Shown piece after piece: positions 17,444 through 42,769 of a DNA stretch of 64,000 bases (positions are counted from its first letter, which is position 1; every line of letters begins with the position of its first letter). This DNA is from Halococcus sediminicola (GTDB lineage Archaea > Halobacteriota > Halobacteria > Halobacteriales > Halococcaceae): NCBI RefSeq assembly GCF_000755245.1, contig NZ_BBMP01000005.1, positions 1-64,000 of the forward strand, written 5' to 3'. Both the position numbers and the translations under genes were made by a program. The notes below the pieces were generated by a model. It searched no databases, was not told where the DNA came from, and saw only the letters and a program-made list of their open reading frames with translations.

Positions 17444-19114
17444 CTAATCGCCAGAGATGAGACTTTTCGCGGCCAATATCACGACGCCAAACAGTGAGAT
17501 GAGGAAAAGAAATCCGAGTGCCATGATCTGTGCGACACCAGCCGCCAGTTGGCCGATCCAGTTGCCCTGATTCGCAGATCTCTGAGCACCATATCCGGTC
17601 CCACTGTAACTCGCGTTCGATGCCGATAGTGAGCTAATGTTTCCCCCGGAGCCGACCTTCTTCGGGTTGGTGAGACCGCTACCGCTCTTACACTGCTTGC
17701 TGAAGCTCACTCCCTCTCCGACCTGAGCACCGTTGATGTCGTCCGGGCCGGAATTTGGCAGTTGGATACAAGTGCCTTGAATACGCGACTGTGGCCGGTT
17801 TTGAATGTTCGTCACGCCGGCCGAGGAACTTCCATCGATGAGAGATTGATTGACGAGGATATTCGTCGCTGCTGGAGCTGACGGTGGCCTGCCAGTTATC
17901 ACCGGCCGGTCGAGGTGGTTCGTGATGTGGCAGTTGCGAATGATTCCTGGGCCACTCTCCGATTCCCACTCGAAGAGCGACGCTCCACTTCGCATCGAGT
18001 TCGCCACGACCTTGATGTTGAGAAACTGAACCGGGTCAGTCTGGTTGCCATATTTCGCGTCGACGCGCACAGCGTACACGCCCTGATGACCGATATTGTA
18101 CGGGCCTTTGTCTGACCACTGACGGTCGTCAAGCAGCATCGACGCTCCGTCAACGACCGACCCACCACCGATTCGTGTCTGTGCGTTGAAGTTGTTCAGG
18201 AAGGTCCCACCACGAACCTCGACACGGCCGGTCGTGCGCCCGCCGTAGATACCGTTCGACCAGCCTCGAAGAGTGGGATTGACCAACTGAATCGTCCCTT
18301 CGGTGCTCTGGCCAACCCAAACTCCCATCGGCGCTCCGAGGCGGTTTTCGGGGGCGGACTCAGGCTTGTCAGGATCATCGTGCGTGCCGGCGGCCGTCCC
18401 GCCGACGGCCGTGAGATTCGTCACGCGAACGACTGCATCCGAGGCCCGCGCAATAGGCGAAAACATCGAATCGACACTACTGTTCGTGCCCGTGGGGCCG
18501 ACGTTCGATTTCGCCGGCGCGTATCCTTTGATCGTGATGTTGTCGGCACGAATCACGCCTTCGGACTGGATGCTGAGTTCCTGGACTGCACCCTCGGCGC
18601 TCTGATCGATAACGATATTCCGGACGAGACTGCCGCCCGGCAACACGAGCGTGAGGCTCTTCATCTCCTCTCCAGCTGGAATTACAAACGAACTTCCGTT
18701 GCCGATGATTTCGACCGGGCCCTCAGGTATCGCCGTCACATGCTCCGAGAGAGCAAACGTGCCATCACTCGGGAATGTAATCCGTGCGTTCGACATCCCC
18801 GACAGCGCCGCCCCGAAATCGCCGTTGATAGGCGTCCCGCCAGTCGGGTCGAGACCGAGATCATCAACGGCGCTGACCGTGCGCTGCATTTGCGGACGCT
18901 GCTGCTGAAAGCGACGCTCGACGTCGGCCATCGCCGCCCGGCCTTCGAGTGAGACACGTTCCACTGACGCGGTCGGCGGGTCCGGCCCATCCAGTCCGCT
19001 CTCGTCACCGAACGTCCGCGACTCGGCCATGGCAGGCATTGCTGCCGTCGCCGCGCAGCCACCGCATCCGGCGAGAAATTGCCGACGCGAAAGCTGAATA
19101 TCAGCGTCAGACAT
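17444..19114 (-). CDS. Tat-exported, membrane-anchored beta-helix surface protein
   Basis: A 556-residue protein with a twin-arginine signal (LSRRQFLAGCGGCAATAAM, with a lipobox-like cysteine after the Gly). A long parallel beta-helix body follows, with repeated short N/G/I/V turns such as NITIKGYAP, VEVRGGTFLNNFNAQTRIGG and IIRNCHITNHL. A C-terminal transmembrane helix (IMALGFLFLISLFGVVILAA) completes it. It is therefore exported folded and tethered at the cell surface. It is the last gene of a leftward operon with a DUF7282 surface protein (4-nt gap) and an HTH protein, divergent from the type IV secretion genes. It may be an adhesin or mating-pair factor; that role is inference. Confidence 0.75.
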   Translation of the reverse strand: MSDADIQLSRRQFLAGCGGCAATAAMPAMAESRTFGDESGLDGPDPPTASVERVSLEGRAAMADVERRFQQQRPQMQRTVSAVDDLGLDPTGGTPINGDFGAALSGMSNARITFPSDGTFALSEHVTAIPEGPVEIIGNGSSFVIPAGEEMKSLTLVLPGGSLVRNIVIDQSAEGAVQELSIQSEGVIRADNITIKGYAPAKSNVGPTGTNSSVDSMFSPIARASDAVVRVTNLTAVGGTAAGTHDDPDKPESAPENRLGAPMGVWVGQSTEGTIQLVNPTLRGWSNGIYGGRTTGRVEVRGGTFLNNFNAQTRIGGGSVVDGASMLLDDRQWSDKGPYNIGHQGVYAVRVDAKYGNQTDPVQFLNIKVVANSMRSGASLFEWESESGPGIIRNCHITNHLDRPVITGRPPSAPAATNILVNQSLIDGSSSAGVTNIQNRPQSRIQGTCIQLPNSGPDDINGAQVGEGVSFSKQCKSGSGLTNPKKVGSGGNISSLSASNASYSGTGYGAQRSANQGNWIGQLAAGVAQIMALGFLFLISLFGVVILAAKSLISGD

Positions 19115-19117
19115 CGC

Positions 19118-20587
19118 TTAGATCCGTTTGCGGATAGCGAAGATCGCCCAAATCAGTCCTGCGAGAATACCGATCAGTACGACGAGGAGTATGATGTCGG
19201 TGAGACTCAGCGATCCCCCTGAACCACTCTTCGCCGCTTGTGACCCGGAGCTATTCGCATTCGTGTTTGCACTCGTCTCTCTGGTCGTCGTCATCGGTGT
19301 CAGCGGCGCGCCTTCGTCGACGATTCGTATCTGTTGGGTGTGATCGCCGACTTTAATCACGTATTCACCCGCCGCATCGTACGAGTGGGTGAACGTCACT
19401 GTGCGGCTTTCCTGGGCGAATAACGCTACCTGCTGGGTCTCGACGGATTCGCCCACGGTAGCAAGTGCGAGTTCACCGTCAAGGCGCGAATCGCGGGGGT
19501 TGGTGATTCGTGCCGTGACGGTCACTTCATCGCCGACGTGTGCCGTTCGGTTGCTCACTGAGAGGGTTGTGATCTTGAACAGCGTCGTGGTATCAACCGG
19601 TGTCGCAGTCGATGTCTCCTCGCTCTCAGTGACACTCTCAGTATCTTCGACCGTGACACCGGCTGTGTCGTTGACGATGACCGACTGGTTGCCCGTCCAG
19701 TTTTCGTAGGCTGTGTCCTGGAATCCATCGCTGGCGATGTAGTCGTAGCGCTGGTTTCCATTTGTGTCGCGGTAGGGCACGGCGACAAGTGTCTGATCCT
19801 CTTCAGCGGCTCCGTCGAGCAGCGGGACGCTCACGCCCTTGTGCTGGCCGACTTCGAGATACGACGAGACGCCGACAGCGCTTTCGAGCGGAGCACTCTC
19901 CGACGAGAGATAGCTCTTGTTGTGGATAACGAGGAACCCGCTGTCAGGCAGTCGGGCTCTCTCGACCGTCAGCGAATCGCCCTGTAGCGTCTGGCTGCGA
20001 ACGGTCACCGACGCCTGCTCGCGGATCTCGGTTGGCACCGTGATACCAGCCGAGTCAGTAATCGGGCTTCCGTCGCTGGCGTAGGCCGTGTCGTTCGCAC
20101 CGACCGATGCGACAAAATCCATTCGCTTGTTTCCATCCGTATCCCGATGGACCATCGCCGTGAGCGGGCCCGAAGCGTTGAGCCGTGAGCGATTCAAGCC
20201 GGGATAATTGCCCGGCGGTGCGTTCGAAATGTCGATTGTGACGCTCGAGTAGTTGCCCGGTTTGAGATATTTCGAGGTGGCGATGACTGAGGACTCAGCC
20301 GACGCTCCACCGGTCGTGTAGCCGCTGCTGTGGATGACAATAAATCCACCCTTGGGAAGCGTCGCACCCTCAACAGTCACGTTCGTCCCGTTCGATGTCT
20401 GGTTCGCGAACGTAACCGTGGCGTTCGTCACGTTAGTGCTTTGGCCGGCGGCGACATCGACGGGCGAGAGGTCTGTAGGCACTCCGATGGGGCCAGCTGA
20501 AACAGTTGCGAAGAGCACCCCGATAAGAGCGAGAACGCCGAGACCGAGTAGCACGCGGCGTATTGCAGTGTGGCCGCGGCGGTACAT
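19118..20587 (-). CDS. Surface protein with two DUF7282 domains and a CARDB-like domain
   Basis: A 489-residue secreted protein with an N-terminal signal-type helix (VLLGLGVLALIGVLFATVSA). Two DUF7282 domains follow, each with the F(I/L)VIH..(G/S)Y and R.DT.GN.R.D(F/Y)(V/I)AS motifs (about residues 50-185 and 190-305). Then come a Thr-rich linker, a CARDB-like beta-sandwich (NRTAHVGDEVTVTARITNP), and a C-terminal TM helix with a basic tail (ILLVVLIGILAGLIWAIFAI). Many N-x-S/T sites would be N-glycosylated. The start could also be ATG 20596, which overlaps the upstream HTH gene by 8 nt; ATG 20587 follows its stop by 1 nt. Co-transcribed with both neighbours. Confidence 0.8.
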   Translation of the reverse strand: MYRRGHTAIRRVLLGLGVLALIGVLFATVSAGPIGVPTDLSPVDVAAGQSTNVTNATVTFANQTSNGTNVTVEGATLPKGGFIVIHSSGYTTGGASAESSVIATSKYLKPGNYSSVTIDISNAPPGNYPGLNRSRLNASGPLTAMVHRDTDGNKRMDFVASVGANDTAYASDGSPITDSAGITVPTEIREQASVTVRSQTLQGDSLTVERARLPDSGFLVIHNKSYLSSESAPLESAVGVSSYLEVGQHKGVSVPLLDGAAEEDQTLVAVPYRDTNGNQRYDYIASDGFQDTAYENWTGNQSVIVNDTAGVTVEDTESVTESEETSTATPVDTTTLFKITTLSVSNRTAHVGDEVTVTARITNPRDSRLDGELALATVGESVETQQVALFAQESRTVTFTHSYDAAGEYVIKVGDHTQQIRIVDEGAPLTPMTTTRETSANTNANSSGSQAAKSGSGGSLSLTDIILLVVLIGILAGLIWAIFAIRKRI

Positions 20588-20588
20588 T

Positions 20589-21059
20589 TCACACATCCTC
20601 GTTCCGAGAACAGCTCTCCTCGTTCACGTCACCATCCGAAGCAGACTCTGCCCCAATCTCGCTTTCGAGGGTTTCGATTTCAGCCCGGAGATGAGAGGTC
20701 CATTCAGTGAGTTGGGCATCAAGGTACTCTTTCATCTCCTCGACCGGCGCGGGGTGGTACACGTACCCCTGTCCTCCGTTTTCGAGGGTTTGACGCTCGC
20801 GTTTGGCGAGGCTGACCTCGTGGAGTCCTCGGAGCGACCGGGCGACATAGCGCCGGTGCTGATCAAGCAGATCTGCAAGCTGGTCAGTAGAGCTGTGTGG
20901 CTGTTCTATGAGAGCGAAATACGCGCGAATCTCGCCTTGCTTGAGATCGAAGATTGCCCGTACGACCTCTTGTGAAGTCTTGTTAGGCTGTGCAAACAGT
21001 TGACTCAGATCGGGATGGAAGTCTGCTAGCGAGGCCGAGTCGGCTTTGGTATCAGCCAT
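20589..21059 (-). CDS. Helix-turn-helix regulator of the surface/secretion module
   Basis: A 156-residue protein from ATG 21059 (MADTKADS); an earlier in-frame ATG at 21131 adds an unlikely basic segment. A TrmB/MarR-like wHTH is visible (FDLKQGEIRAYFALIE, SSTDQLADLLDQHRRYVARS, then LHEVSLAKR). A C-terminal coiled-coil-like helix (VEEMKEYLDAQLTEWTSHL) and an acidic tail follow. It is first in the leftward operon with two surface proteins and shares its roughly 200-bp upstream region with the rightward secretion genes. It is well placed to coordinate both. Confidence 0.75.
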   Translation of the reverse strand: MADTKADSASLADFHPDLSQLFAQPNKTSQEVVRAIFDLKQGEIRAYFALIEQPHSSTDQLADLLDQHRRYVARSLRGLHEVSLAKRERQTLENGGQGYVYHPAPVEEMKEYLDAQLTEWTSHLRAEIETLESEIGAESASDGDVNEESCSRNEDV

Positions 21060-21255
21060 ATCTCCCTCTTTCTGCCAATGCAGGATGTGAACTGTGCGTT
21101 GTATATTTTGATATTCATTTAAAACTGTCATATCAGGCCCCCAATGATCAGGAATATATGTAGTTCAAAACACACTCGAATAGATTTTATCCTGTAATGG
21201 GAGAGAGGGAGAACATCGACACCGCAACCGGAGGACGGTGTTCGAAGAAACAACT

Positions 21256-21885
21256 ATGTTAAACGAAAACTCGCGCGAGCACGTCGAACTGTTCGTCGAG
21301 AAGGCAAAAGAGCGGTACCCACGCCTCGCAGCACTCGTCGCCCGCCTCGCTGCAGTGTATCACCGCACACCGGTTGATGCTGACCGTGAAGCAACGCTCC
21401 GTCGATACGTGCGCGTGCCCGGACTCGTGGTGATCGGTCTGTCGATGTTGGCAGTGCCGGCTGCGGCCCAACTCGATCAGGTCGGCCAAGCGCTCTGTAA
21501 CAACGGCATCGGTCAGATTCTCTCGATCGTGTTTGCCGCTGCTACCCTCTATTTCCTCTTCAAAGCCATCTTCAGAGGAATGTCCGGGCTAGACAAGAAG
21601 GGATCGAAGAAGCCCCAAACTCAGCAGGAAGGTGACAACCAGTTACTGGGAGCACTCTATTCGGGTGCAGCCGCGTTCGCCCCGCCAATCTTTGCTGCCA
21701 TCCTCGAAATCATCGGTGTCAGCACGATCTCGTGTTTCGATTTCAACGTCGGCGTGTTCGGAATGGTCATGCCACTGCCAGCCAGCGGCACGCCGCTCGA
21801 TCCGGTGATCGCTGCTGTCAGCCCGATGGGAGCGCAGGGTCTCTCGTTCGCTGCGCTCGCTGCCGTCGGCTACATCCGCGCCTAA
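21256..21885 (+). CDS. Small polytopic membrane protein of the secretion module (pilin/VirB2-like position)
   Basis: A 209-residue protein from ATG 21256 (MLNENSREHVELF). It has a charged N-terminal helix, then four hydrophobic segments: PGLVVIGLSMLAVPAAAQLD (which could be a signal with AAA cleavage), IGQILSIVFAAATLYFLF, a stretch ending FAPPIFAAILEIIGV, and GLSFAALAAVGYIRA. It precedes the VirB6-like and VirB4-like genes with a 25-bp gap. VirB2-type pilins have signal plus two helices, so this could be a pilin-like or channel subunit. Family recognition is by position only. Confidence 0.6.
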   Translation: MLNENSREHVELFVEKAKERYPRLAALVARLAAVYHRTPVDADREATLRRYVRVPGLVVIGLSMLAVPAAAQLDQVGQALCNNGIGQILSIVFAAATLYFLFKAIFRGMSGLDKKGSKKPQTQQEGDNQLLGALYSGAAAFAPPIFAAILEIIGVSTISCFDFNVGVFGMVMPLPASGTPLDPVIAAVSPMGAQGLSFAALAAVGYIRA

Positions 21886-21910
21886 CCAACCCGCTCTCTC
21901 ACCAATCCAG

Positions 21911-23422
21911 ATGTTTGAGTCAGACTCGCGTCGGTCGGCAGTGCAGGTATCCACCCTTCTCGTAGTGCTCTGTATCGTTCTCGGTGTTGCCGGCGGTGTA
22001 GTGTTCGTTGACCCGGTGAGCGCACAGGCCGGGAACACAACGAACACGACGAATACCACATCCACTCCCACTCCCGGCGAGCAACTGAGTCGGCTCAATG
22101 GGTCGAATACTACAGGGGAAGGTGGAAACCAGACAACGCCGCTTGATGCGTCGAATCAACGTAACCAGACCTCATTCGGCGTTGGCGGGGCGAATCGTGG
22201 GGTGGCTGGTGGCAACACCAGTACAAGCGTTTCTGGAAACGGGAGCAGCAGCGGCGGGGGCGGTGGGAAATGCGGTGTGACGAATCCCGGTGCGTGCATT
22301 CCCAGTCCCGGTGAAACACTCAGGGAGTTCGTGAATTTCATTGAAAATTCGGTCACGAAGAATGTGCAGAAAGTGGTTGGCGGGTTCAATGATATTTTCG
22401 TCGGCATCCCCGCTCCGGGAGACGTCGGCGATCCGAGTACGTGGGCGAGCCCGGAGAATGGCTGGTGGCCGGACATCTACGAAACGTACTACATCTTCAT
22501 GACGTTCGCTGCGGCCGCTCTTCTGCCTGCGATCATGATTGCGATGGATCGAGCCGATCCCTACCGTCGCGAGAAAGAGTTGAAACGCCTAGCTGGTCAC
22601 GGCGTGATGATCCTCCTCGGAGCGTTGCTCGTCATGCCGGCTTCGCTTCACCTCTTCGACGCGGTTTCCACATCACTTGCCCCATCGGCGGGTGAGTTCC
22701 TTGACTCGGCAGCCGGTTCTGGGAAGCTCAGTATCGGTGTCATTCTCACTGGCGCGCTATCACTTACACAGTCAACGCTCGTCCTCGTCGGTCTCGCAGT
22801 CATCGTCATGATCTACGTAGCGATTCATATCCTCGCGGCATTCTGGCCGATCTTTTGGGTCGCCCGTCTTGCACCAGTCTCCTCGATCGAATGGGTTGGT
22901 AACGCCGGCATCGCGAGCTTCTATGGGTTGTGTTTCCTGCGCGTATTGCAGTCGGGGATGCTACGGTTCCTCTTCGGTCTCTCGTGGGACCCTATTGAAG
23001 CTGGCATCGCAACGGCATTCGGATCGGTCCTGCTCACCATCGTCGGCCTTGTTTTCGTCTTCATCATCTTCCCGAAGGCGTTCGCTCGAAAAGGCGTCCC
23101 GGCGTCAGCGATGGTTTCGGGCGGGTCGCAGGCGATGAAGAAAGCGCCCGAGCGCTACGAGAACTCTCGTGAACGCATTGGCAATGTCCAACAGCGACTA
23201 GAGGGCATCCGTGGGGATGGCAGCGGGAATTCCACCAGAGGCAGTACGACCAGCGAGAGTTCGACACAGGTTGGATCAGTCGGTTCGACAGCGGCATCGA
23301 ACAATCATCACGGTGGGTCTGTTCGGCGCGTTGGCGAGGTAACGAGCGATAAACTCCGCGGTGGCGTCGATGCATCACAGGTTGAGCGCCGCCGCCACGA
23401 CATCCACGACCAGTTGGATTAA
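21911..23422 (+). CDS. VirB6/TrbL-like polytopic membrane protein
   Basis: A 503-residue protein with a signal-like helix (VSTLLVVLCIVLGVAGGVV). An extracellular Asn/Thr/Gly-rich region with many N-glycosylation sites covers residues 35-115. Then come about seven membrane helices (residues 195-400) and a cytoplasmic Ser/Arg-rich tail. The layout matches VirB6/TrbL-type channel proteins of type IV secretion. Hydrophobic cores include YIFMTFAAAALLPAIMIAM, GVMILLGALLVMPASLHLF, VLVGLAVIVMIYVAIHILAA and LTIVGLVFVFIIFPKAF. Immediately upstream (18 bp) of the VirB4-like ATPase. Function is inferred from topology and neighbours. Confidence 0.7.
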   Translation: MFESDSRRSAVQVSTLLVVLCIVLGVAGGVVFVDPVSAQAGNTTNTTNTTSTPTPGEQLSRLNGSNTTGEGGNQTTPLDASNQRNQTSFGVGGANRGVAGGNTSTSVSGNGSSSGGGGGKCGVTNPGACIPSPGETLREFVNFIENSVTKNVQKVVGGFNDIFVGIPAPGDVGDPSTWASPENGWWPDIYETYYIFMTFAAAALLPAIMIAMDRADPYRREKELKRLAGHGVMILLGALLVMPASLHLFDAVSTSLAPSAGEFLDSAAGSGKLSIGVILTGALSLTQSTLVLVGLAVIVMIYVAIHILAAFWPIFWVARLAPVSSIEWVGNAGIASFYGLCFLRVLQSGMLRFLFGLSWDPIEAGIATAFGSVLLTIVGLVFVFIIFPKAFARKGVPASAMVSGGSQAMKKAPERYENSRERIGNVQQRLEGIRGDGSGNSTRGSTTSESSTQVGSVGSTAASNNHHGGSVRRVGEVTSDKLRGGVDASQVERRRHDIHDQLD

Positions 23423-23440
23423 TCACAGCTTATCACACCA

Positions 23441-26400
23441 ATGAGTAAGGCAATCCAGAACTCAGACGACGAAGAAACGAATCGGAGTCCGGCACAGATC
23501 ATCCCGCGCCACGTCGATACCGCGATGAAGGTCAACGGGTATCCCGTGAAGAAATTCGTTATCGGGTTCCTTCCGGCGGGGATCTGTGCGCTCGCGGGCG
23601 TTCTCACGGTGCTCATGAGTGGCCCTGCACTGCTCGCGGGGGTGTTCGTGTTGGTGTTCGCGCCGGTAGCACTCGTTCTCGGCGGCTGGGTCGTCATCAA
23701 GTCGAACTGGCATACGCCACCGCGTGAGCGCTTGCGAAACTGGCGGCGCTACCGCCGACTTCGGCGGTCGATGCTATGGAATCATTCCGAGACGGTTGCT
23801 CACGACCTCGCTGGCCTTGCTGAGATCTACGATGACGGGACAGCCCGGATGACTGACGGTCGTGTCGTCGGGCTGGCTGACATCAGCGGGCGGGCAACCG
23901 ACCGAATGACTGAGTTTGACGCGAACGAGATCGTGAACCAACTCGGTGGACAGTTCGACGAGACGATCAAGAACTTCGGGTTTCGGTTTTACACGACCAC
24001 GCTGCATACGTCGGATACGGACGCGCTCACGAAATCGTACCACGAGGCCGCACGGAGTGAGCGCCTTGAGGATCGTGTGTGGACATACGTGCGCGCGATC
24101 TGTCGGTCACTCGCGCAGTGGCGAAGCACCACTGACGATCCTGCATGGGACGCACCCGACCGTCGGCATTACATTGTCGTCGAGGCGACAGATGACGACG
24201 CCCGTTCACTACCTTCGCCGTCGATACGCGCTCGGCTGAATCCGTTTCACTCATCGGAGGATGTGACCGAACGGCAGCGCCGTCGGGCTGCTAAGCGTGA
24301 ATTGCTCTCGCGGCTCTCGAATGTTGAGGGGGCTATCAGTAACGTCGAGGGACTCTCGGCCGAGCGTATCTCGCCGGACGAACATGCACAGATACTCCTT
24401 GACTATTGGACCGGCGAGAATCACGCTCCCGACGACGAACTCGAACACGCCTTCCGCCGTGAGCATACCGGACCGACCGTCTGGCCGCCTGCACGAACCC
24501 AGAGCACACCGGATAGTGACGTTCCCATGCCAGGGGATGAGCGCGAGGACGCTGCCGGTGTGACTCAAGGTGAAGACGGAGACTCAGACAACGATCAAGA
24601 GGGCGAAACAATGCGTGCTCCGGGCAACCGAACGGCCCGCGAGCGCCTGTTTGGACTATTCGACGGGGTTGCCAGCAGCGACGAAGCGAGCGGTGCTGAC
24701 CATGTGGGACTATCATCTGAGGACGAGACGCCAGCCCAGCGGTTGCTCGCTCCCGGTATCTACGACGTGACCCGCGATTACGTGCGCGTCGGTGACCAAC
24801 TCTGTCGTACCTACTGGATCAGTGAGTGGCCGGATGAACCCGATTCGCTGTATTGGAAACCCATCTACACGCTGTTCGGCGCTGAACTGGATGGGGGCGA
24901 CCTCAATCCCGAGACGGACATTCCAGTCGATCTGGACGTGTCTATCCACGTCGAACCAGAGGACCGAGACGCCGTAATGAAAGAACTCTCGAAACAGTGG
25001 GGATCAATCGGTGCCGAAGGCGTCCAGCGTTCCGAGGGTGGGGGCGATGTGACCGCTATCGGTGTCGATTCCGATCAGGACATCTACACTCAGATGTACG
25101 AACTGCTGCGAACGACGAACGTTCAGCCGTGGCGCGTCAGCGCCTACGTGACTGTTCGTGCCGGACAGAAGCAGGCTATCGAGCAGTTCGAAGACACGCT
25201 CCGCGACTACGCCTCGCTAGATGCTGCGAAACAGGACGCACTCCGCGTGCGCTCTGAGCAGATTACCGATATGCTCGAAGCCGCGCCAACGAACTGCTAT
25301 CCCGTCATGGCCGGCGACCTCCACCATGCGGCCTTCGAGTCAGGGTCGCCAACCGGCCGAAACGCCTTCGCACAGATCGGCCGGCGCGATCTCAAAACTC
25401 AGTGGATGCTCGGCGACGGCGTGGCAGCCCTGTTCCCGCCCTGTTCCGATACCATCCAAGAAGAGGAAGGCATCGAATGGGGGCGTAACGAGCAAGACGG
25501 ACAGGTCATCAAGGCGAACCCGTTCGAGCGGGGTCTCGCTCCGCACATCATCACTATCGGGACCTCTCGGTCAGGGAAATCCTACTCGGCACAGAAAGCG
25601 TGTCAGCGCTGGTATTCCGAGGGTAAAGACCGAACGCTCATCGTCCTCGACACGCAGGGTGAGTTCGATGGACTGACGAAGGCGCTGAATGGCAAGCACA
25701 TCGTGCTCGGTGGACGGGATGCGGTCAACCCGTTCCATACCGAAGCCCCGCCGGAACACGCGGGCCACACGGGCGGACAGATGAGTCCGTTCACGATGAA
25801 GGCCGACAGCATTGTACAGTTCATCAAGGCGCTTGTCCGCACGCAAGGGTACGACCCGTCGATCTTTCACAACACGATTGAACAACTCGTGCGTCGGACG
25901 TTGATCGAGGCGGGAGCCGACCCGCGAGACCCCTCATCACTCGCCGATGCGGACGCGACCATGCGCGATTTCATCGAACTGTCCGAGAAAGTGATGGACG
26001 AGCCGAGTTCGCTCACTCTCGGCACTCACGACAAAGAACTCGGCAAGAAAGCTGAGAAGATCGCCGAGTTGCGTGACGCGCTCGGCGGGTTCATGGAGGG
26101 CCAGAAATACGAGTATCTGCTCGATGAGGACGCGACCGGCCTCATGGACGATGACGTAGACATGGCCTACTTGGACCTCCGACAGTTTCGGGATTCGAGT
26201 TCGGCAGAGAAGTCGGCCATGTTCCGGCTCATGCTCGATCAGGTCAACCAGAAGGTCAAGCGCACGTCCGGAGAGACGATTTTCCTGATCGACGAGGCGC
26301 ACTTCTTGCTTCACTCCGAGGAGATGGTGAACTGGTTGCAGAAAGCTGCCCGTGAGTGGGCACGCTACGATGCTTGCCTCTGGTTTTGCTCGCAATCGCC

Positions 26401-28072
26401 GCGCGAGTTCATCGCTCAGACCACGGGCGATGATGGCGAGAACAAACGCCGGACGATCTACGAGCAGTGTTCGACGGTGCAGTTCTTCCGCACACGAGGT
26501 CTCGATACTGATGACGAGGAAGACGACATCCTACCGAAGTTCGGGCTGAACGAGAGACAGGTGAAGCACGTCAAGAAGGGGATGCACCCGGGCAAGGAAG
26601 GCGACTACTCCCAAGCACTCATCCAGTTTGACGACCGGCCTGAAAGTTGGTTCCCGCTTCATATTGAAGCATCACCGGTCGAGGATGCTATCTGTACGTA
26701 CACGCCGCGCGAAGACGGTGACTTCGCGGCGTACATGGAGGCACAATGCGGTATCGAGCCGCCGGAGGAGAGTGGTTATACGCCGCCAGCAACTGCTGTT
26801 CCAGTTGTTCCCGACCCAGCAGAGGATGATGAGGAGTCATCACCAGTGGCTACAACCACTCCAACGGCGACCGCGGACGGTGGGACGCTGACTGGCCCAG
26901 TCGGCAACAGCACGAACGAGAGCGGTATCGATGCCCGGCGAGCCACCGATACGGACGCGGCCCATGATTTGCTCACCGTGGACCCGAGTACTCTCGGCGA
27001 GCGCTCTGGGTCAACTAACCATAGCAGAACAAGCGTTGAGCAGACAGAAGCCGCATCGCATGACGACAACGCTGACGGCAACAATGCGCCCGACGCCGGC
27101 AACGGTACTGACTCTGAAACCTACGAAGGATCGGACTGGGTGGATGATGCTGCTCTGTACGATGTACACGCTGAATCTGAGCGAGAGGACAAAGATATGG
27201 CGCCCACGGGAACCACGACGGCTGCCACTCCTGCTTCGACGCCCAACGCTACCGAATCAGCGGAGACGAGTGACGCAAGGACACGAGAAGGACTAGACAC
27301 AGAGACGGAGAGCGAGCAGGACCCAAGTTCTGATGAATCCGCGAGTGACGGCGGTTTGAGCGAGAGTTGTGAGGAAGAAGATGCGGCTGTTGAAGAACCG
27401 AACCGGGAAACCGAGGTGAGTCGGCGAGGGCTACTGAGCCGGTTCAGAGGCAGCATTAGTTCTGCTTTCGATCATCCGGCTACCGAAAAATCCCAGCTAG
27501 ACGTCACTGACATCGGTATCGTGGATGCAGAGAAAGCCACGGTGCTACGCGAAGCAGGCTTCGAGACGGTCACAGAGGTCTATACGGCTGAATCGACCGC
27601 ACTCACAACAGTCGAGGATATCGACGAGACGAATGCTACCTACATTCAGGACGGGGCCGAGCAAGCGCTGGAGGCTTCGGCTGTGTCTATGCCTGCCGAT
27701 GCTGGTAAGGTCCACACGGAGGACGCTCACGGTTCTGAAACCAACGGGACCAGTGAGCAGTCAGTCGAGGAAGCACAACCTCCGGATGTTTCCGACGGCG
27801 ATGAGAGCGCCGATGCAGCCGAGCAAACGTCCGAGAGCACCGACAACCAGCCTGTGCTCACGGATCTTCAGCAGGTCGGCGACAACCGGGCCGATGAAAT
27901 CCACAGGGCGGGCCTCAAGACTGTCCAGGACGTGGCGACAGCCGATCAGAACGCGCTGACCAATGTCGAAGGTATCGGCGAGGCACGGGCCGAGACGATT
28001 GCCGAGAGTGCGAATACTCTGATCAGCGACCAATCGGATGGCGGGGTAGCCGATGCTGGAGGTGATGGGTGA
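23441..28072 (+). CDS. VirB4/TraC-like conjugation ATPase with N-terminal PrgI-like membrane domain and C-terminal HhH domains
   Basis: A 1543-residue protein that would power a type IV secretion/conjugation channel. Residues 38-92 form a two-helix membrane hairpin (KKFVIGFLPAGICALAGVL) like PrgI/VirB3. The middle is the VirB4 N-domain, interrupted by an acidic linker near residues 350-425. The ATPase has Walker A (GTSRSGKS, residues 707-714) and Walker B (TIFLIDEAHF, 946-955). The last 500 residues are low-complexity acidic. They contain two helix-hairpin-helix-type repeats: IGIVDAEKATVLREAGFETV near 1353-1415 and QQVGDNRADEIHRAGLKTV to VEGIGEARAETI near 1473-1526. Such a DNA-binding tail is unusual for VirB4. 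Stop and next start are 1 bp apart. Confidence 0.82.
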   Translation: MSKAIQNSDDEETNRSPAQIIPRHVDTAMKVNGYPVKKFVIGFLPAGICALAGVLTVLMSGPALLAGVFVLVFAPVALVLGGWVVIKSNWHTPPRERLRNWRRYRRLRRSMLWNHSETVAHDLAGLAEIYDDGTARMTDGRVVGLADISGRATDRMTEFDANEIVNQLGGQFDETIKNFGFRFYTTTLHTSDTDALTKSYHEAARSERLEDRVWTYVRAICRSLAQWRSTTDDPAWDAPDRRHYIVVEATDDDARSLPSPSIRARLNPFHSSEDVTERQRRRAAKRELLSRLSNVEGAISNVEGLSAERISPDEHAQILLDYWTGENHAPDDELEHAFRREHTGPTVWPPARTQSTPDSDVPMPGDEREDAAGVTQGEDGDSDNDQEGETMRAPGNRTARERLFGLFDGVASSDEASGADHVGLSSEDETPAQRLLAPGIYDVTRDYVRVGDQLCRTYWISEWPDEPDSLYWKPIYTLFGAELDGGDLNPETDIPVDLDVSIHVEPEDRDAVMKELSKQWGSIGAEGVQRSEGGGDVTAIGVDSDQDIYTQMYELLRTTNVQPWRVSAYVTVRAGQKQAIEQFEDTLRDYASLDAAKQDALRVRSEQITDMLEAAPTNCYPVMAGDLHHAAFESGSPTGRNAFAQIGRRDLKTQWMLGDGVAALFPPCSDTIQEEEGIEWGRNEQDGQVIKANPFERGLAPHIITIGTSRSGKSYSAQKACQRWYSEGKDRTLIVLDTQGEFDGLTKALNGKHIVLGGRDAVNPFHTEAPPEHAGHTGGQMSPFTMKADSIVQFIKALVRTQGYDPSIFHNTIEQLVRRTLIEAGADPRDPSSLADADATMRDFIELSEKVMDEPSSLTLGTHDKELGKKAEKIAELRDALGGFMEGQKYEYLLDEDATGLMDDDVDMAYLDLRQFRDSSSAEKSAMFRLMLDQVNQKVKRTSGETIFLIDEAHFLLHSEEMVNWLQKAAREWARYDACLWFCSQSPREFIAQTTGDDGENKRRTIYEQCSTVQFFRTRGLDTDDEEDDILPKFGLNERQVKHVKKGMHPGKEGDYSQALIQFDDRPESWFPLHIEASPVEDAICTYTPREDGDFAAYMEAQCGIEPPEESGYTPPATAVPVVPDPAEDDEESSPVATTTPTATADGGTLTGPVGNSTNESGIDARRATDTDAAHDLLTVDPSTLGERSGSTNHSRTSVEQTEAASHDDNADGNNAPDAGNGTDSETYEGSDWVDDAALYDVHAESEREDKDMAPTGTTTAATPASTPNATESAETSDARTREGLDTETESEQDPSSDESASDGGLSESCEEEDAAVEEPNRETEVSRRGLLSRFRGSISSAFDHPATEKSQLDVTDIGIVDAEKATVLREAGFETVTEVYTAESTALTTVEDIDETNATYIQDGAEQALEASAVSMPADAGKVHTEDAHGSETNGTSEQSVEEAQPPDVSDGDESADAAEQTSESTDNQPVLTDLQQVGDNRADEIHRAGLKTVQDVATADQNALTNVEGIGEARAETIAESANTLISDQSDGGVADAGGDG
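28058..28066 (+). promoter_or_regulatory. Strong Shine-Dalgarno that decides the VirD4-like start
   Basis: GGAGGTGAT lies 7 nt before ATG 28074 and inside the end of the VirB4-like gene. It supports ATG 28074 over the in-frame ATGs at 28053 and 28065 and shows internal translation in the operon. Confidence 0.7.
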
Positions 28073-28073
28073 G

Positions 28074-31000
28074 ATGAGCGACAGCGACATCGGTGATCCT
28101 ACTAGTTACGCCGGAGGTGCCGATACTGGCGGTCTCGGAAAATCCTATTCGGCCGCGGACTACGCAGCCAGTGAAATCACACCAGAAATGGCCGCAGAGC
28201 TTGCTCCACCGAACGACGTAGAGCAGGCCATCTCCGTGCGGCCTCATCGTGATAACGGTGGGATCGAAGCGATGATCGAAGTCCTGGAATCGCTGCACAC
28301 GGTCGAAACCACTCGAAAGGGCCTCCGCCGCCGCACGGTCAACGTCTCTCCCGCCCACGCAGCCGAGATACGGTACACCGCCGACGAGAGCGGCGAAAGA
28401 TCACTGTCTCTTCAGTACGTTCCAGGCAGTCAATCGCTCGCCGGAACCTTCGAGGGGCAGCTGCAGACGCGCTACGATGAATCGTTATTTGACCGGGCCA
28501 ATCCTGCGCTCTTGCCGGTCAAACAAACCACTGCTGCCGACGAATCCAGTGGTGCCAACGGAGAATCCGCCTATATCTCAGGCGCAACACTCGCGCTTCG
28601 CAAATACACGCTCTTCCCGATCAAGAATGTTTCATTGCCGGGCTTTCGTTCCGACCCGACCGGTGCGATTATGCAGGAGATGGTCGACTCACAGGATGAT
28701 GTAGCGCCAGACGCGGATGTCGTGGTCCAAATCATGTTTCGACCCGAAGATCGCGGGTGGCGACAGGGCGTGTCCGGCGGTCATGGGCTTACTGACGGAG
28801 ATGACCCGAATATCACTGGTGAGCTATCCCTTCAAGAGCTCTCGTTCAACCTCCGACAGCCGACTATCAAGAAAGAGCGGATGACGTTCACCAAGGAGAG
28901 AGTTGAGTATCCTGCCTCGAAGGTAGACAAGAAAATCGCCAATCTTCTCGAGGAGCAGCAGGGCGAGAAAGGCTGGCATCTGTGCTTGCGTGTGTTCGCG
29001 CTCTCGGAAGACCCCGAGGTAGCGAAACGGCGTGCATCCAAGACCGCCGGGATGTTCGAGAACTTCTACGAAGCCAATAGCGAGCAAACATTTGTCCCTC
29101 AGCCAATCAACCAGCGCGACCTCACTGACGAGTACGCTGACGCGGCCGCACGAGAATTCGAGGAGACAGGTATCGTCAAAGCACAGGGCGAGGTCGCCGG
29201 TCTCGTGAACATCCCCGAAGCGAAGGACATTGCCACGAACAAGATGCGGTGGTCGCTCACGAAACCCGGCGACGGTGTGCCACCGAAAACCCCGCGCTTC
29301 CCGTTCGATGATTACGGAGTCGCCAGTGCGAGCGACCACCTCAAACAGACAACGATCTTCGACGCTAGCAATCCGGGCGACCCGTTTTACTTTGGATGGG
29401 GGGCAAAGCACGGCACTGAGGCTGGCATCTTTTCAAAATTCTTGGATGCACACATGTTTATCGCCGGCCGCACTCGATACGGGAAAACAGTCCTCACCGA
29501 GCATTTCTGCTCACAGGTATTCGAGCGCGGCGAGGGCGGTCTCGTCATTGATCCGAAAGGCGATGACGCGGATGATTTCATTCGAGAATGGCCTGATCAC
29601 CGCGATGAAGACGATCTGATTGTGATGGACCTCGGGCTGAATCCCGAGGATGAACCCTACGAGAACATTCCTCGGTTCAACTTTATGGAGATACCGCCGG
29701 GGTATGACCCTGACTCGCGGTTCGCGTCAACGATGATCGAAGCTCTCGCCGACGATATCGCCGCGATGGTTGCTCAGTCCGGTGGCTCCGAAAAGTACCT
29801 CGGCGCTCTCATGAAGCGCGTAACCAAGACCGTCTCGAGAGGATTGCTACGCTCCGGCCGTGGGGTGAGCCTACTCGATCTTGCCTGCGCGTGTTCATCG
29901 CAGACTGGGCTCTCTGAGTTCTCGCGCTGGATGGACGACGAGCGCATTACGTTCATCCGAGAGACCGCCCACCGCTTCGAGGAAAAGGAGGATGCGGACC
30001 TCGAACCGCTCGCCGGCCGGATGGACGAGTGGATTCATAACGACGCCATCCGCGACCTCATTTCCGCACGTGACCCGTCGTTTTCGATTCACGAGGCTGT
30101 TGAGGAGGGGAAGGTCATCGTGCTCCGGTTCGCTAAAGGAGCAGGCGAAACCGAGCGCCGACTGCTCACCACAGCACTCATTCGGCGAACATACGCCTCG
30201 AAGCGTGTCTGTGATAACGATAGTCCGTTCTATCTGGTTTGTGACGAATTCGACAAGATAGCTACTGAGGAATCCAATCTCCATACGATTCTCTCAGAAG
30301 CGGGCGGCCACAACTATCGCTGCGTGATGGCCTGTCAGGCTCCCGGCAACCAGCTTCCTGGCCGGCTGAAAAACACCGTTGGCAACCAGTGTGATACGTT
30401 CCTCACGTTCAATCCAGGCACGAAAAACGCTGATTTCGTTGCCGAACATCACTCGGTTGAGGCGGAGACACTTCGGGAGATGCCTCGATACAAATGCTAC
30501 CTCCGTACCCATACCTCGACCGACGACAACACCCACTCGTATCTGGTCAACGCTTTCGAGCCGATTGAAGAAGTGCGTGAGAGTGTGACCGGTGAGACGG
30601 GTATGAGCGACGAGGAAGTCGAAGCGCTCAAGCTCCAGTCGATGGAGCGCTACGGCGAACCCATCGAGTCAGCAGAGGAACAGCAGCAAGAATCAGCATT
30701 CTACGAGGGCGGGGCAGTCACACCGGGTGAAGGTGGCCCGACATCGCTGAATATGGACGACAAGGAGGTGCGAAATCTTGCCCTGAAAGCCGTCTTCGAC
30801 GAGAGTATTCGGCAGGGCGACCCCGGTGGGTTCGTCGCGGTCGAGGAGTGTGTCGAGCGGCTGCAGCGGTATCTGCCCGAAGGAGAGACGATCAACGACG
30901 CGGGCCGAGCGTGGCGCAACGTCCTTCAGGAAGTCCCCGATGCATACCTCGATAACCGTGAGGTAGACGACCAGATGGAGGTCAGAGCTACCGACCGCGG

Positions 31001-32024
31001 ATTCATGAACGTTGGCGCGTCGGAGAACGATGGGAAAGCCGAGCACTGGGCACCGATGGCGAATGCCTACATTCCGTTCACGCAACTCGGCTTCGTGATG
31101 GATATCCCGGCTCAGACAGGCGATGAAATGCCCGACGGTCTCGCAAAGCTCGATGATGCTCTTCAGATCGAGGACATTGACGACCCGGCGAAGATCGCCG
31201 ACCGAGTGAACGACTACCGGGAATCCAACGAGTTGCTAACCCGTCTCGCTGGAACGAAAACAGCGTATATCGAGTCGGAACACACGACCGGCGCAACCCA
31301 GCCCTCCCAGACCATTCGGAATCTAGTGCAGGCGCACAACCGAGGCCATCGCTGCCTGTTCTTCGCCCGCGAAAGCGTTGCCGAGCAGGTCTATAATACG
31401 GTAGCGCACGAGCCGATGTGCTGCCGGAGTAACCACCCGGAAAGCGACGAGAAGCGATTCTATACGAGCACGACGACGCTACGAATCGACGGCGAGGAAA
31501 TGACGCGCCCCGGCGAGGCCGAGAACGTCTGGGTCCACGACACGGAGACTGGTCAGTACATCCTGCGTGACCGAGCGGGGACGGTTCACGCGCGCTTCGA
31601 CACGCCAGCGGACATCTTTACTGATGCGAGCGCGTATCCTGACGGTGGCAACCGCAACATCAAGCCACCAGTCATCCCCGAGTACGAAATCGGCGGGGAG
31701 GACGTAACGAAGATCGAGTGGGACATCATTGTGGTTCCCGAGCCAGAGCGCGACGAGGAAGGCAACGAGAGCACGCTTACGCCGGCCGACCTCAAACTCT
31801 ACCGAGAGGGGGCGAAGAACATTCCGCTCATTGATCTCACTGAAGACGTTACAGAAGGTGAAAACATCGAACCGAGCGGTGGCAAGCAAGGATCATCAAC
31901 CAACTCAGAAACCGATGAGATGCCCGGACAAGGCAGAGACGATGATGCAGTCGAATCTACCTCCGAGCAACATGAAGACGAAGGGGATTATCTTGAGGAT
32001 GCTCTCTCTGGCGTCTTCAACTGA
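28074..32024 (+). CDS. VirD4/TraD-like coupling ATPase with long C-terminal extension
   Basis: A 1316-residue protein that would recruit DNA or relaxosome to the channel. Residues 60-400 form an N-domain with a VirB4-like feel (SLQYVPGSQSLAGTFEG, VVVQIMFRPEDRGW). The P-loop is FIAGRTRYGKTVLTEHF (about 463-475) followed by LVIDPKGDDADD. Walker B is FYLVCDEFDKIATEE (about 718-732), then GHNYRCVMACQAPGNQLPG, a typical T4CP/HerA sensor block. After residue 860 there is a wHTH-like segment and a 300-residue domain with CCRSNHPESDEKRFYTSTTT that I do not recognise. No N-terminal membrane helices are seen, so membrane contact may be through the VirB4-like partner. Confidence 0.8.
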   Translation: MSDSDIGDPTSYAGGADTGGLGKSYSAADYAASEITPEMAAELAPPNDVEQAISVRPHRDNGGIEAMIEVLESLHTVETTRKGLRRRTVNVSPAHAAEIRYTADESGERSLSLQYVPGSQSLAGTFEGQLQTRYDESLFDRANPALLPVKQTTAADESSGANGESAYISGATLALRKYTLFPIKNVSLPGFRSDPTGAIMQEMVDSQDDVAPDADVVVQIMFRPEDRGWRQGVSGGHGLTDGDDPNITGELSLQELSFNLRQPTIKKERMTFTKERVEYPASKVDKKIANLLEEQQGEKGWHLCLRVFALSEDPEVAKRRASKTAGMFENFYEANSEQTFVPQPINQRDLTDEYADAAAREFEETGIVKAQGEVAGLVNIPEAKDIATNKMRWSLTKPGDGVPPKTPRFPFDDYGVASASDHLKQTTIFDASNPGDPFYFGWGAKHGTEAGIFSKFLDAHMFIAGRTRYGKTVLTEHFCSQVFERGEGGLVIDPKGDDADDFIREWPDHRDEDDLIVMDLGLNPEDEPYENIPRFNFMEIPPGYDPDSRFASTMIEALADDIAAMVAQSGGSEKYLGALMKRVTKTVSRGLLRSGRGVSLLDLACACSSQTGLSEFSRWMDDERITFIRETAHRFEEKEDADLEPLAGRMDEWIHNDAIRDLISARDPSFSIHEAVEEGKVIVLRFAKGAGETERRLLTTALIRRTYASKRVCDNDSPFYLVCDEFDKIATEESNLHTILSEAGGHNYRCVMACQAPGNQLPGRLKNTVGNQCDTFLTFNPGTKNADFVAEHHSVEAETLREMPRYKCYLRTHTSTDDNTHSYLVNAFEPIEEVRESVTGETGMSDEEVEALKLQSMERYGEPIESAEEQQQESAFYEGGAVTPGEGGPTSLNMDDKEVRNLALKAVFDESIRQGDPGGFVAVEECVERLQRYLPEGETINDAGRAWRNVLQEVPDAYLDNREVDDQMEVRATDRGFMNVGASENDGKAEHWAPMANAYIPFTQLGFVMDIPAQTGDEMPDGLAKLDDALQIEDIDDPAKIADRVNDYRESNELLTRLAGTKTAYIESEHTTGATQPSQTIRNLVQAHNRGHRCLFFARESVAEQVYNTVAHEPMCCRSNHPESDEKRFYTSTTTLRIDGEEMTRPGEAENVWVHDTETGQYILRDRAGTVHARFDTPADIFTDASAYPDGGNRNIKPPVIPEYEIGGEDVTKIEWDIIVVPEPERDEEGNESTLTPADLKLYREGAKNIPLIDLTEDVTEGENIEPSGGKQGSSTNSETDEMPGQGRDDDAVESTSEQHEDEGDYLEDALSGVFN

Positions 32025-32200: not shown

Positions 32201-33002
32201 CTATTTATTGATTTTTAACTCGTTCAAGGGCCGACCCACAACAACCGTAGTTTGTTGCGTGAAGTACAATTCGTTACCCTGCCAAAATGGACGGGTGCCG
32301 CTCAGATTGTCATTCGCATCTTCTTCAATCAAATCCCGAACAGTCTCTGCCTGTGATGTTGATGTTTGTGCTAGATCAAGCCAATCATCCACCTGTTGAA
32401 CAACAACATCAGAGCCAACAGACGTAACTTCGATATTACACTCGGTGAACAGCTCAAGTAGCTCGCTTCTAGGGAGTGCCCGAACGTGTGACGGATCTCG
32501 AAGTTGCTCAAAACGGTTTTGGTACGATGCACGTCCTGGGAATTCACTCACGGTAATATCGTCAACTGCAACTGTGCCCTCAGAGCAGCATATTCTCGAC
32601 ATCTCTTGAAGAACTGTCCCTGGGTTTTCGAAGTGATGAAACGCTAGGCGACAGACAACTATATCGAAACTATTGTCACCAAACGAAAGATCCTCAGCAT
32701 CCCCTTTCTCAAAGGAGATGTTCTTCACGTTCTGCTCTTGTTTTCTTTCTCTAGCAATTTCAAGAGGAGCCTCTGTAATGTCGATACCAACTACCTCATC
32801 ACATTTTTGTGCGAATTCGAACGCGACATGGCCGGGACCCGTCGCAATCTCAAGAACCCGCGCTTCAGATGATGGGTCTGCTGCGTTAACCAATCTCTCG
32901 ATTTTTTTCTGGATCAGTTAGTAAGGAACTGTTTGCGTAATCATCAGCTTGTTTTGTGAATTCCTCGCGGACAGTATTCTTGTGGTCGGTTGATTCAGTC
33001 AT
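32201..33002 (-). pseudogene. Class I SAM-dependent methyltransferase broken by a frameshift
   Basis: From ATG 33002 the frame reads MTESTDHKNTVREEFTKQAD and YANSSLLTDPEK, then fails at a run of seven T (32902-32908, A on the coding strand). With one A fewer, it would read on into IERLVNAADPSSEARVLEIA. The downstream part has motif I VLEIATGPGHVAFEFA, VVGIDITEAPLEIAR and FDIVVCRLAFHHFENP, a UbiE/ubiquinone-type methyltransferase. The DNA is distinctly AT-rich relative to neighbours, so it was probably acquired recently. The shift could also be a sequencing error in a homopolymer. Otherwise a GTG/ATG restart at 32893 would lack the N-terminal cap. Confidence 0.75.
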
Positions 33003-33534: not shown

Positions 33535-34011
33535 TCATTCATCGAGCCAGTCCTGAGCCGTTTCTTCCCGAACACCGCCGGCCTCAACTGCGATATGCAC
33601 CATTGCTTCTTTGATGTTCTCTACGTCGTCCCGAAGCTCCGCAACTTCCTCTTGCACCTCTTCGAAATCCTCCGGCCGAACGAGAGACGAGGCAGACACG
33701 TCCAGCCCATCCGAACAAAATTCCTCCCCACGGTCAGTCAGCTTCCACACGATAGCCCGTGCTCCACGCCCCGTATAGACCCGGTCAATTTCCTCGATCA
33801 ATTCCCAATTTTCGAGCCGGCTTGTGTGGTGGCGAATGCTCCCGCTGGGAACGTTTGACCGCTCCCGTAACTCTGAGGTGTTCATCGCACGATTGTCAGC
33901 AGCGAATAACAGTGTCAGGATGTTCCGCCGTGCTTCTCCGAGGTGGTCACGCATCTCCTCGAATGAGGGAGGAAACTCACTGGGGCTGTCCTGTTCAGTA
34001 GCGTCGCCCAT
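33535..34011 (-). CDS. Winged-helix regulator with C-terminal coiled coil
   Basis: A 158-residue protein with a MarR-like wHTH (LGEARRNILTLLFAADNRAM, NVPSGSIRHHTSRLENWELI, a wing around YTGRGARAIVWKLT) and a C-terminal coiled coil (VQEEVAELRDDVENIKEAMV). This type is frequent on haloarchaeal plasmids and viruses. It is transcribed away from the T-depleted region that starts about 40 bp upstream and could control or be part of that region's biology, for example replication or partition. Confidence 0.78.
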   Translation of the reverse strand: MGDATEQDSPSEFPPSFEEMRDHLGEARRNILTLLFAADNRAMNTSELRERSNVPSGSIRHHTSRLENWELIEEIDRVYTGRGARAIVWKLTDRGEEFCSDGLDVSASSLVRPEDFEEVQEEVAELRDDVENIKEAMVHIAVEAGGVREETAQDWLDE

Positions 34012-41308: not shown

Positions 41309-42769
41309 ATGCCTCACGCTCATTCGACGGCCAAACTACTCGTCATCCCCTCCACGGTTGCACTCCAGTTTTCGCCACCGGAGTTCGAAGATGCACTCAA
41401 CTATTTCGCGCCCGACGCCCTCACCGTCCTCGGTCCTCAAGAACACTCCTACACTACGGCTGCCTTCGATCATATCACAGATGACTCTGTTCCCGTCGTT
41501 TTCGAATCGTTCGGTGCCTCTCTCACCGACGACTTTCGACCGGTGAAATTGAACGATATCGATGTGGTTTTCGCAAACACCGCTGCTGATATCGGATCTC
41601 TCTCCGACGCTGAGGCAGACGGGTTACTTAATACTGATACGGAAACCTACATCGTGAGTGGACTCCTGAGTCTGAACATCGATACCGATTCCCTTTCGAC
41701 CACCCTCACCGGTCTCTCCGAATATCATACAGCACTCTCACCGACCAAAAAGAAAGGCTCGTACACACACCTCACGACGAAGATCGAAGCCGGCTACGCC
41801 CACAGATGGGAGGGCCTCCGAATCCGTGGAATAGGTCTTCAAGAAGGGCCTGGGTTGCCCCCATTGACCTGTTTTACACTCGATAGGGAGGGTCACACAA
41901 AAGCAGAATCGCTTGATCCCGGCAAACTGGGCCTCCGCGCTATCCATGGTGTCGGCCCAACCACTGAAGACCGACTCCAGGCGGTAGGGATCACCACCAC
42001 GGAAGATATCGCCGCCACGACCGTCAGAGATTTAGCCAAAATCAAGGGTATCGGATCGAAGACCGGTGAGAAGCTTCGCTCGAACGCACAGGCCTTCACC
42101 GAGGGCCGTATCATTCGAACCAGCGATACACCCCTTCCCGGCCAAGACCCTGTCTTCATCGATATCGAGACAGATGGATTGAACCCGACGATTGCATGGT
42201 TAATTGGGGTTCAGGACGGCATCAACGGCAACTACATTTCATTCATTCAGCCCGACCCCGAGGAACCAGGGAAAGCAGTTCGTGACTTCATGCTCTGGTA
42301 CACGACGAACGCATCGGATCGGACGCTGATCGCGTGGAACGGTTGGAACTTCGATTTCCCTGTGCTTCGTGAGCAGATCACCGCACACTGCCCGCAGTAT
42401 CTCGAAGCCTGGAAGCGAGCTTCAAAGCGCGACCCACTCCGATGGGCTCGTGACCTCGACAATGCTGTTTTCCCCGGTCGGACAAACAAACTTGAACACG
42501 TTGCCGACGCACTCGGCTGGGAGCACGACGATACGGGCCTCTCAGGAGCCGCTGTCGGCCGTGCATATCGGCGATGGATAGAGACACGTAGTCCAGACCA
42601 CGAACTCAACTGGGAGCGTCACAAGAGCTACTGTGAGGATGATGTCCGTTCACTCGCATTCATCTACGAAAAGATGGATGAGGCGAATCGACTCGCTGCG
42701 ACGAACGAAAAGCGGTCTCAGCCAATCAGAGAAACTACTGACCAAGGAACGCTTGGAGATGCTTACTGA
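41309..42769 (+). CDS. MrfB-like 3'-5' exonuclease with HhH domain
   Basis: A 486-residue protein with three parts. Residues 1-150 form an N-terminal region without a clear family. A helix-hairpin-helix repeat covers about 210-265 (AIHGVGPTTEDRLQAVGI, then AKIKGIGSKTGEKL). A C-terminal RNase H-like/YprB exonuclease domain has PVFIDIETDGL (DxE, about 283-291), IAWNGWNFDFPVL (Asp near 347) and CEDDVRSLAFIYEKM (last Asp near 440). In Bacillus, MrfB (YprB) is the metal-dependent exonuclease partner of the MrfA helicase in mitomycin repair. The adjacent downstream helicase at 43147 makes this assignment strong. HhH on the nuclease is the distinctive feature. Confidence 0.82.
   Translation: MPHAHSTAKLLVIPSTVALQFSPPEFEDALNYFAPDALTVLGPQEHSYTTAAFDHITDDSVPVVFESFGASLTDDFRPVKLNDIDVVFANTAADIGSLSDAEADGLLNTDTETYIVSGLLSLNIDTDSLSTTLTGLSEYHTALSPTKKKGSYTHLTTKIEAGYAHRWEGLRIRGIGLQEGPGLPPLTCFTLDREGHTKAESLDPGKLGLRAIHGVGPTTEDRLQAVGITTTEDIAATTVRDLAKIKGIGSKTGEKLRSNAQAFTEGRIIRTSDTPLPGQDPVFIDIETDGLNPTIAWLIGVQDGINGNYISFIQPDPEEPGKAVRDFMLWYTTNASDRTLIAWNGWNFDFPVLREQITAHCPQYLEAWKRASKRDPLRWARDLDNAVFPGRTNKLEHVADALGWEHDDTGLSGAAVGRAYRRWIETRSPDHELNWERHKSYCEDDVRSLAFIYEKMDEANRLAATNEKRSQPIRETTDQGTLGDAY

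Follow-up and report, generated by a model that had tools for sequence, protein, structure and literature searches.

The four-gene cluster at positions 21256-32024 is read here, with a modest lean in favour, as a self-contained archaeal conjugation module of the Ced/Ted-like type IV design, in which the C-terminal domain of the VirD4-like coupling ATPase would cut DNA instead of a relaxase; this reading is drawn from sequence. The C-domain consists of a winged helix followed by a region whose best explanation is a nuclease of PD-(D/E)XK type; support for this fold is moderate, and the domain is the best candidate both for a relaxase substitute and for a substrate-specificity domain. Excerpts from two papers (PMC9905601, PMC6563490) treat the initiation of relaxase-less archaeal conjugation as still to be explained. 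A nuclease-like domain on a coupling ATPase, common among haloarchaea and present in Haloferax too, provides one candidate that can be put to the test in genetically tractable organisms.

The stretch analysed, referred to as the window, comprises the first 64,000 nucleotides (1-64000) of a contig of 222 kb in a haloarchaeal genome of 3.76 Mb that is 95.5% complete; the plasmid DNA nearest to it is that of Halococcus dombrowskii. The cluster contains four co-oriented genes on the + strand, encoding a pilin-like protein of 209 aa, a VirB6-like protein of 503 aa, a VirB4 of 1543 aa and a VirD4-like protein of 1316 aa. The open reading frames are those of the original prediction, as is the 1-bp interval between the VirB4 stop and the VirD4-like ATG at 28074; a second in-frame ATG of the VirD4-like gene lies upstream, at 28053. 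The features of the locus are as follows.

17444..19114, - strand: TAT-signal surface protein, 556 aa, divergent partner (homologues at 34 loci; TAT_signal 0.007)
19118..20596, - strand: DUF7282 + CARDB surface protein, divergent partner (Pfam 1.8e-55; at 16 loci)
20589..21131, - strand: HTH regulator, TrmB/Lrs14-like, divergent (Pfam TrmB 6e-7, NCBIfam Sta1 3.6e-13; at 6 loci)
21256..21885, + strand: VirB2/TedC-like pilin (signal peptide, two membrane segments, Cys pair, family T4SS_pilin matches)
21911..23422, + strand: VirB6/TrbL-like polytopic membrane channel protein (position, conservation, homologue TrbL_3 match)
23441..28072, + strand: VirB4 ATPase fused to two HHH_5 domains, 1543 aa (profile matches)
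23558..23698, + strand: VirB4 N-terminal membrane hairpin, residues 40-86 (hydropathy)
25418..26710, + strand: VirB4 ATPase domain (NCBIfam VirB4 models, PDB 4ag5)
27497..27664, + strand: VirB4 HhH domain 1, degenerate hairpins (dN/dS 0.21)
27857..28018, + strand: VirB4 HhH domain 2, canonical second hairpin VEGIGEARAETI (HHH_5 match, dN/dS 0.30)
28074..32024, + strand: VirD4-like coupling ATPase, 1316 aa, no predicted membrane helix (profiles, hydropathy)
28209..29357, + strand: VirB4-like N-terminal domain of the VirD4 protein (AF2 pLDDT 78.6; Foldseek TrwK/VirB4 2e-4)
29379..30662, + strand: VirD4/TraD-type ATPase domain (profile matches, alignment)
30750..31013, + strand: winged-helix domain of the VirD4 protein (AF2 pLDDT 86.8; many winged-helix matches, Z 6-7)
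31023..31799, + strand: nuclease-like part of the VirD4 C-domain, putatively of PD-(D/E)XK type (conserved D, 31134; conserved E-x-E, 31272-31280)
33535..34011, - strand: winged-helix gene convergent to VirD4 (homologues at 32 loci, mostly at the VirD4 end)

The presence of a VirB2/CedA1-like pilin with two membrane segments is indicated by family profile, signal peptide and hydropathy. The T4SS_pilin model matches 11 of the 20 family members, individually weakly (best 1e-4); the signal peptide ends in AAA with Q following, hydropathy reveals two hydrophobic segments and the family alignment an invariant cysteine pair. The cleavage site is similar to that of the Ted pilin TedC, AVA followed by QA, reported in an excerpt from PMC9905601. 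The next gene encodes a VirB6/CedA-like polytopic protein, recognised by position, conservation at more than 80 loci and hydropathy topology; one aligned homologue matches TrbL_3 at 2e-26, and the window copy itself gave no direct TrbL_3 match. The identity of VirB4 is established by NCBIfam TIGR00929 (2e-15) and TIGR02746 (6e-16), with VirB4/TraC models at about 1e-15 to 1e-23, and by a match of the family profile to the bacterial VirB4 of PDB 4ag5 at 8e-15. That a membrane hairpin, a VirB4 ATPase and two HhH domains are joined in a single 1543-residue protein, as had been proposed, is borne out by the ORF and by NCBIfam, Pfam and hydropathy. The hairpin had also been called PrgI-like; hydropathy places it at residues 40-86, and the PrgI label has no profile support, PrgI and VirB3 profiles matching this segment in none of 14 relatives.

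No relaxase family was found among the window ORFs scanned, in agreement with the original prediction. The search was extended beyond the module, and the HUH relaxases MOBP (PF03432) and MOBF (PF08751) both lack a match in the whole genome, at its 95.5% completeness, on which ground a relaxase of these two families elsewhere in the genome was rejected. Because archaeal conjugation systems are generally devoid of recognisable relaxases, according to excerpts from PMC9905601 and PMC6563490, the absence is the normal archaeal state rather than a peculiarity of this locus; the idea of a conjugation-like module without a relaxase is supported, but not as a distinguishing mark. A fusexin-type mating element likewise found no support: HAP2/GCS1 (PF10699; fusexin, fsx1) has no match in the genome with a model that may miss archaeal fusexins.

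The VirD4-like protein is identified by TrwB_AAD_bind (Pfam, 2.4e-4) and SXT_TraD (NCBIfam, 2.6e-8), and a VirD4 homologue of the same genome matches TraG-D_C at 1.9e-9. Hydropathy predicts no N-terminal membrane helices. The N-domain, modelled by AF2 with a pLDDT of 78.6, resembles the N-domain of VirB4 (Foldseek TrwK/VirB4, 2e-4, prob 1.0), and it exists as a separate gene in several relatives (L044, L045, L054 and L034); it could let the VirD4 and VirB4 rings stack. The original prediction of a further, unrecognised domain of about 300 residues holds for residues ~890-1242, which have no Pfam match and on which PHROG and PDB-sequence searches also gave nothing usable. The 31 aligned C-domain members have in common the motifs G..GG..H, Q.G...PD and E-x-E..T...N, and across all matches the D is kept in 70/70, the first E in 80/80 and the second E in 72/79.

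Structure prediction, which had been suggested as a check on this C-terminus, returned an AlphaFold2 model with a pLDDT of 86.8 and a pTM of 0.83, from alignments that omitted two rows from annotated plasmid records. It shows a winged helix and then an alpha-beta-beta-beta-alpha-beta arrangement, in which the D lies at strand two and the E-x-E within strand three. VIA-align gave many winged-helix matches for the first part (Z 6-7) and, among the matches listed over the second part, the restriction enzyme PaqCI (Z 7.8), YaeQ (6.6) and EndoMS (6.6), all at Z below 8, which is under the level that the tool advises trusting and where chance arrangements occur. PaqCI, YaeQ and EndoMS are PD-(D/E)XK-fold proteins. 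Foldseek returned no significant match for the C-domain and mostly found the winged helix; two weak matches were to phage 'Nuclease' models. In a profile comparison with haloarchaeal Hjc (E 0.0095), PD falls on PD and E-x-E on E-x-K; shuffling reached this score in 0 of 200 and 1 of 150 cases, and the HHalign probability was low. The C-domain profile did not align with NucS/EndoMS. A NucS/EndoMS mismatch endonuclease gene lies on the same contig (46741-47502), and several NucS_C matches are found genome-wide. The third catalytic position of the C-domain is Glu, not Lys, and a Glu in the Lys position also occurs in BamHI. The second part of the C-domain is likely to adopt a PD-(D/E)XK-type nuclease fold, and it is rather more likely than not to be active as a nuclease. 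For the different DNA processing suggested earlier, the winged-helix/nuclease-like C-domain of VirD4, which the original prediction had noticed without identifying, is a better candidate than the HhH domains.

It is possible, although we consider it rather unlikely, that double-stranded DNA is pumped in the style of FtsK/TraB, the winged helix recognising sequence and the nuclease-like domain being inactive or serving resolution or regulation only. Such a view is consistent with the Glu at the catalytic Lys position, with the winged helix adjoining the motor and with the dsDNA transfer proposed for Sulfolobus plasmids (cited in an excerpt from PMC6563490). However, a D/E/E triad invariant over deep divergence argues for activity, and an excerpt from PMC9905601 argues for ssDNA as the cargo of Ted pili.

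Of 116 haloarchaeal genomes, 61 have matches to the C-domain; most of these are in large proteins, and some are weak or stand-alone. TraG-type ATPases from a different lineage carry the domain as a fusion too. Three such TraG/TraD-type ATPases (L173, L174, L175) have a compact and cleaner C-terminal nuclease-like domain (PD...ExE..K). Stand-alone relatives, mostly of ~250-300 aa, are present in many haloarchaeal genomes (L167-L172, L179-L186) and apparently lack the catalytic residues. No C-domain was found near by at 36 of 68 VirB4 loci, many of the fetched stretches being short. Between the window and the paralogous module of the same genome, identity is 89% for VirB4 and 95% for the VirD4 ATPase versus 28% for the C-domain, and the 89% DNA identity ends at 30704, the C-domain boundary. 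Milder cases are the Haladaptatus and Halomarina pairs, with 0.97 for the ATPase versus 0.54 and 0.65 for the C-domain; in other Haladaptatus pairs, VirB4 stands at 0.96, the ATPase at 0.68 and the C-domain at 0.26. This drop in identity would be the pattern expected of a substrate-specificity domain, and it could also reflect an ordinary recombination breakpoint or relaxed constraint. We tentatively suggest, at a strength that stops a little short of probable, that the C-domain is a sequence-specific nuclease replacing the relaxase, so that motor, recognition and cutting would reside in one protein, and that it is exchanged between near-identical modules to change the DNA that is sent. Fast divergence and swapping between co-resident modules are also typical of conflict systems, and the C-domain might then be a nuclease with which the coupling protein defends against or excludes competing elements. 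We regard this as quite unlikely, since the domain is fused to an ATPase in nearly all cases with its catalytic motifs intact, and no partner modification or immunity gene was seen.

Under the preferred reading, that of a conjugation module whose coupling protein cuts DNA, the pilin would form the mating conduit, and VirB6 together with VirB4, anchored by its N-terminal hairpin, would form the membrane motor. A soluble VirD4 ring would recognise the element's own DNA through the winged helix, its PD-(D/E)XK-type domain would cut that DNA in the relaxase's place, and VirD4 would then feed the cut DNA to the VirB4/VirB6 channel and the pilus. The HhH tails of VirB4 would help without being required, perhaps by holding on to DNA or to a partner close to the motor.

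The place given to the tails differs from the original prediction, in which the HhH domains suggested that the export ATPase may hold DNA itself. Their assignment is secure: HHH_5 (PF14520, Pfam) matches two C-terminal stretches of VirB4 at 3.4e-14, its 53.5 bits exceeding the curated cut-off of 27. Purifying selection has kept both domains in this genome's paralogous module, and they are thus not a product of chance; between the two closest modules, their dN/dS values of 0.21 and 0.30, versus 0.50 and 1.24 in the linkers, indicate that they are maintained. The hairpin glycines are gone from HhH domain 1, and one canonical hairpin remains in domain 2. Tails are present on 16 of 70 haloarchaeal VirB4 cores (tree rows), among them some five divergent lineages from the genus to which the window belongs and others in Natronococcus, Saliphagus and Halocatena. 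At least four changes are counted by supported branches, and six on the quick tree of these 70 cores, in which several long branches make the exact placement of tails unsure. From the sequences compared, the HhH tail is a real, recurrent and dispensable accessory of VirB4, and DNA binding by it is plausible.

That the tails make VirB4 the DNA-holding part, and thereby constitute the key innovation, appears doubtful. The profile match with its canonical GIGxxRAxxI hairpin, the selection on both domains and the recurrence of tails among VirB4 lineages of the genus are in its favour, but 54 of the 70 cores are tailless with the same kind of module around them, and HhH was for this reason rejected as a defining feature of the system. 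In addition, 22 loci have the C-domain without HhH, 10 have both and 5 have HhH without a C-domain near by, which makes the C-domain independent of HhH. The claim is further weakened by the degeneracy of domain 1 and by the promiscuity of HHH_5, which has 25 matches in this genome and can also mediate protein contacts. The tails show transfer ATPases repeatedly gaining small accessory domains. In a genome of the same genus, a VirB4-like protein (L135:3901-7203) has N-terminal HhH domains and one internal match, the domain having moved ends. Elsewhere in the window (41309-45480), an RNase H-like protein with an HhH domain precedes a DEAD helicase that bears an MrfA zinc-binding domain, a pair that resembles the MrfB/MrfA DNA-repair pair.

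VirB4 relatives turned up in 248 of the 391 genomes searched across the class, and the present genome has four copies of the module, on four contigs. The pilin-VirB6-VirB4 order, often followed by VirD4, is common to the aligned plasmid and chromosome loci, and the complete four-gene order is found on plasmids of Haloferax, Halalkalicoccus, Haladaptatus and elsewhere. Many loci also have a divergent TAT-signal surface protein, DUF7282 protein or small regulator, together with a convergent winged-helix gene. The surface proteins at 17444-20596 (TAT-signal, DUF7282/CARDB), divergent from the operon at many loci, are candidate mating adhesins. Compared with other loci, a methyltransferase-like ORF (32201-32893) appears to have been inserted here, separating VirD4 from the customary convergent winged-helix gene. 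In PLSDB, homologues are annotated as 'transfer complex protein' or 'conjugal transfer protein'. It is very unlikely that the module serves protein secretion or virus release rather than DNA transfer. T4SSs can export proteins, and homologues occur on three IMG/VR contigs; against this, the relatives are on plasmids, VirD4 carries a winged helix and a nuclease-like domain, and no effector-like genes were recognised among the window ORFs scanned. A search of 50,697 phage records gave no match, and a phage origin was accordingly rejected. The three 'viral' contigs with this transfer module (L076, L077, L078) probably represent plasmids wrongly classified as viruses.

Archaeal VirB4/VirD4 systems that lack a relaxase are already known (excerpts from PMC9905601, PMC6563490 and PMC11868833), as are haloarchaeal VirB4/VirD4 regions (excerpts from PMC2841640 and PMC9259645). 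The Ced and Ted systems of Sulfolobales and Thermoproteales share with the module a VirB2-like pilin, a VirB6-like channel, a VirB4-type ATPase and the lack of a relaxase, in the excerpted descriptions of PMC9905601 and PMC11868833; the module adds a VirD4-type coupling protein with a nuclease-like domain, an HhH-tailed VirB4 and plasmid-borne relatives. Sulfolobus conjugative plasmids and thaumarchaeal ICEs likewise combine VirB4, VirD4 and VirB6 without a relaxase, but their accessory genes differ, and the excerpts from PMC6563490 contain no mention of a VirD4-nuclease fusion. Haloarchaeal VirB4 and VirD4/TraG are also carried on mobile elements in the 53-kb 'possible DNA secretion system' of Hfx. 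volcanii (PMC2841640) and the fusexin IMEs (PMC9259645), in the excerpts of which no description of HhH tails or of the VirD4 C-domain was found; unlike those IMEs, this genome is without a HAP2/GCS1 match. More broadly, neither an HhH-tailed VirB4 nor a VirD4-nuclease fusion was found described in the literature searched, which consisted of open papers. Bacterial conjugative T4SSs share VirB2, VirB4, VirB6 and VirD4 homologues with the module, whereas in the module no relaxase was found and VirD4, free of membrane helices, begins with a VirB4-like N-domain. In Thermus transjugation (TdtA-NurA, ICEth1), DNA is donated by a HerA-FtsK ATPase and a nuclease, the NurA gene beside the TdtA ATPase having a role in donation, as excerpted from PMC5365140. 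These are separate genes in a different gene set, and NurA has an RNase H fold rather than a PD-(D/E)XK fold; by analogy, Thermus transjugation is a functional precedent for an ATPase and a nuclease acting together in donation.
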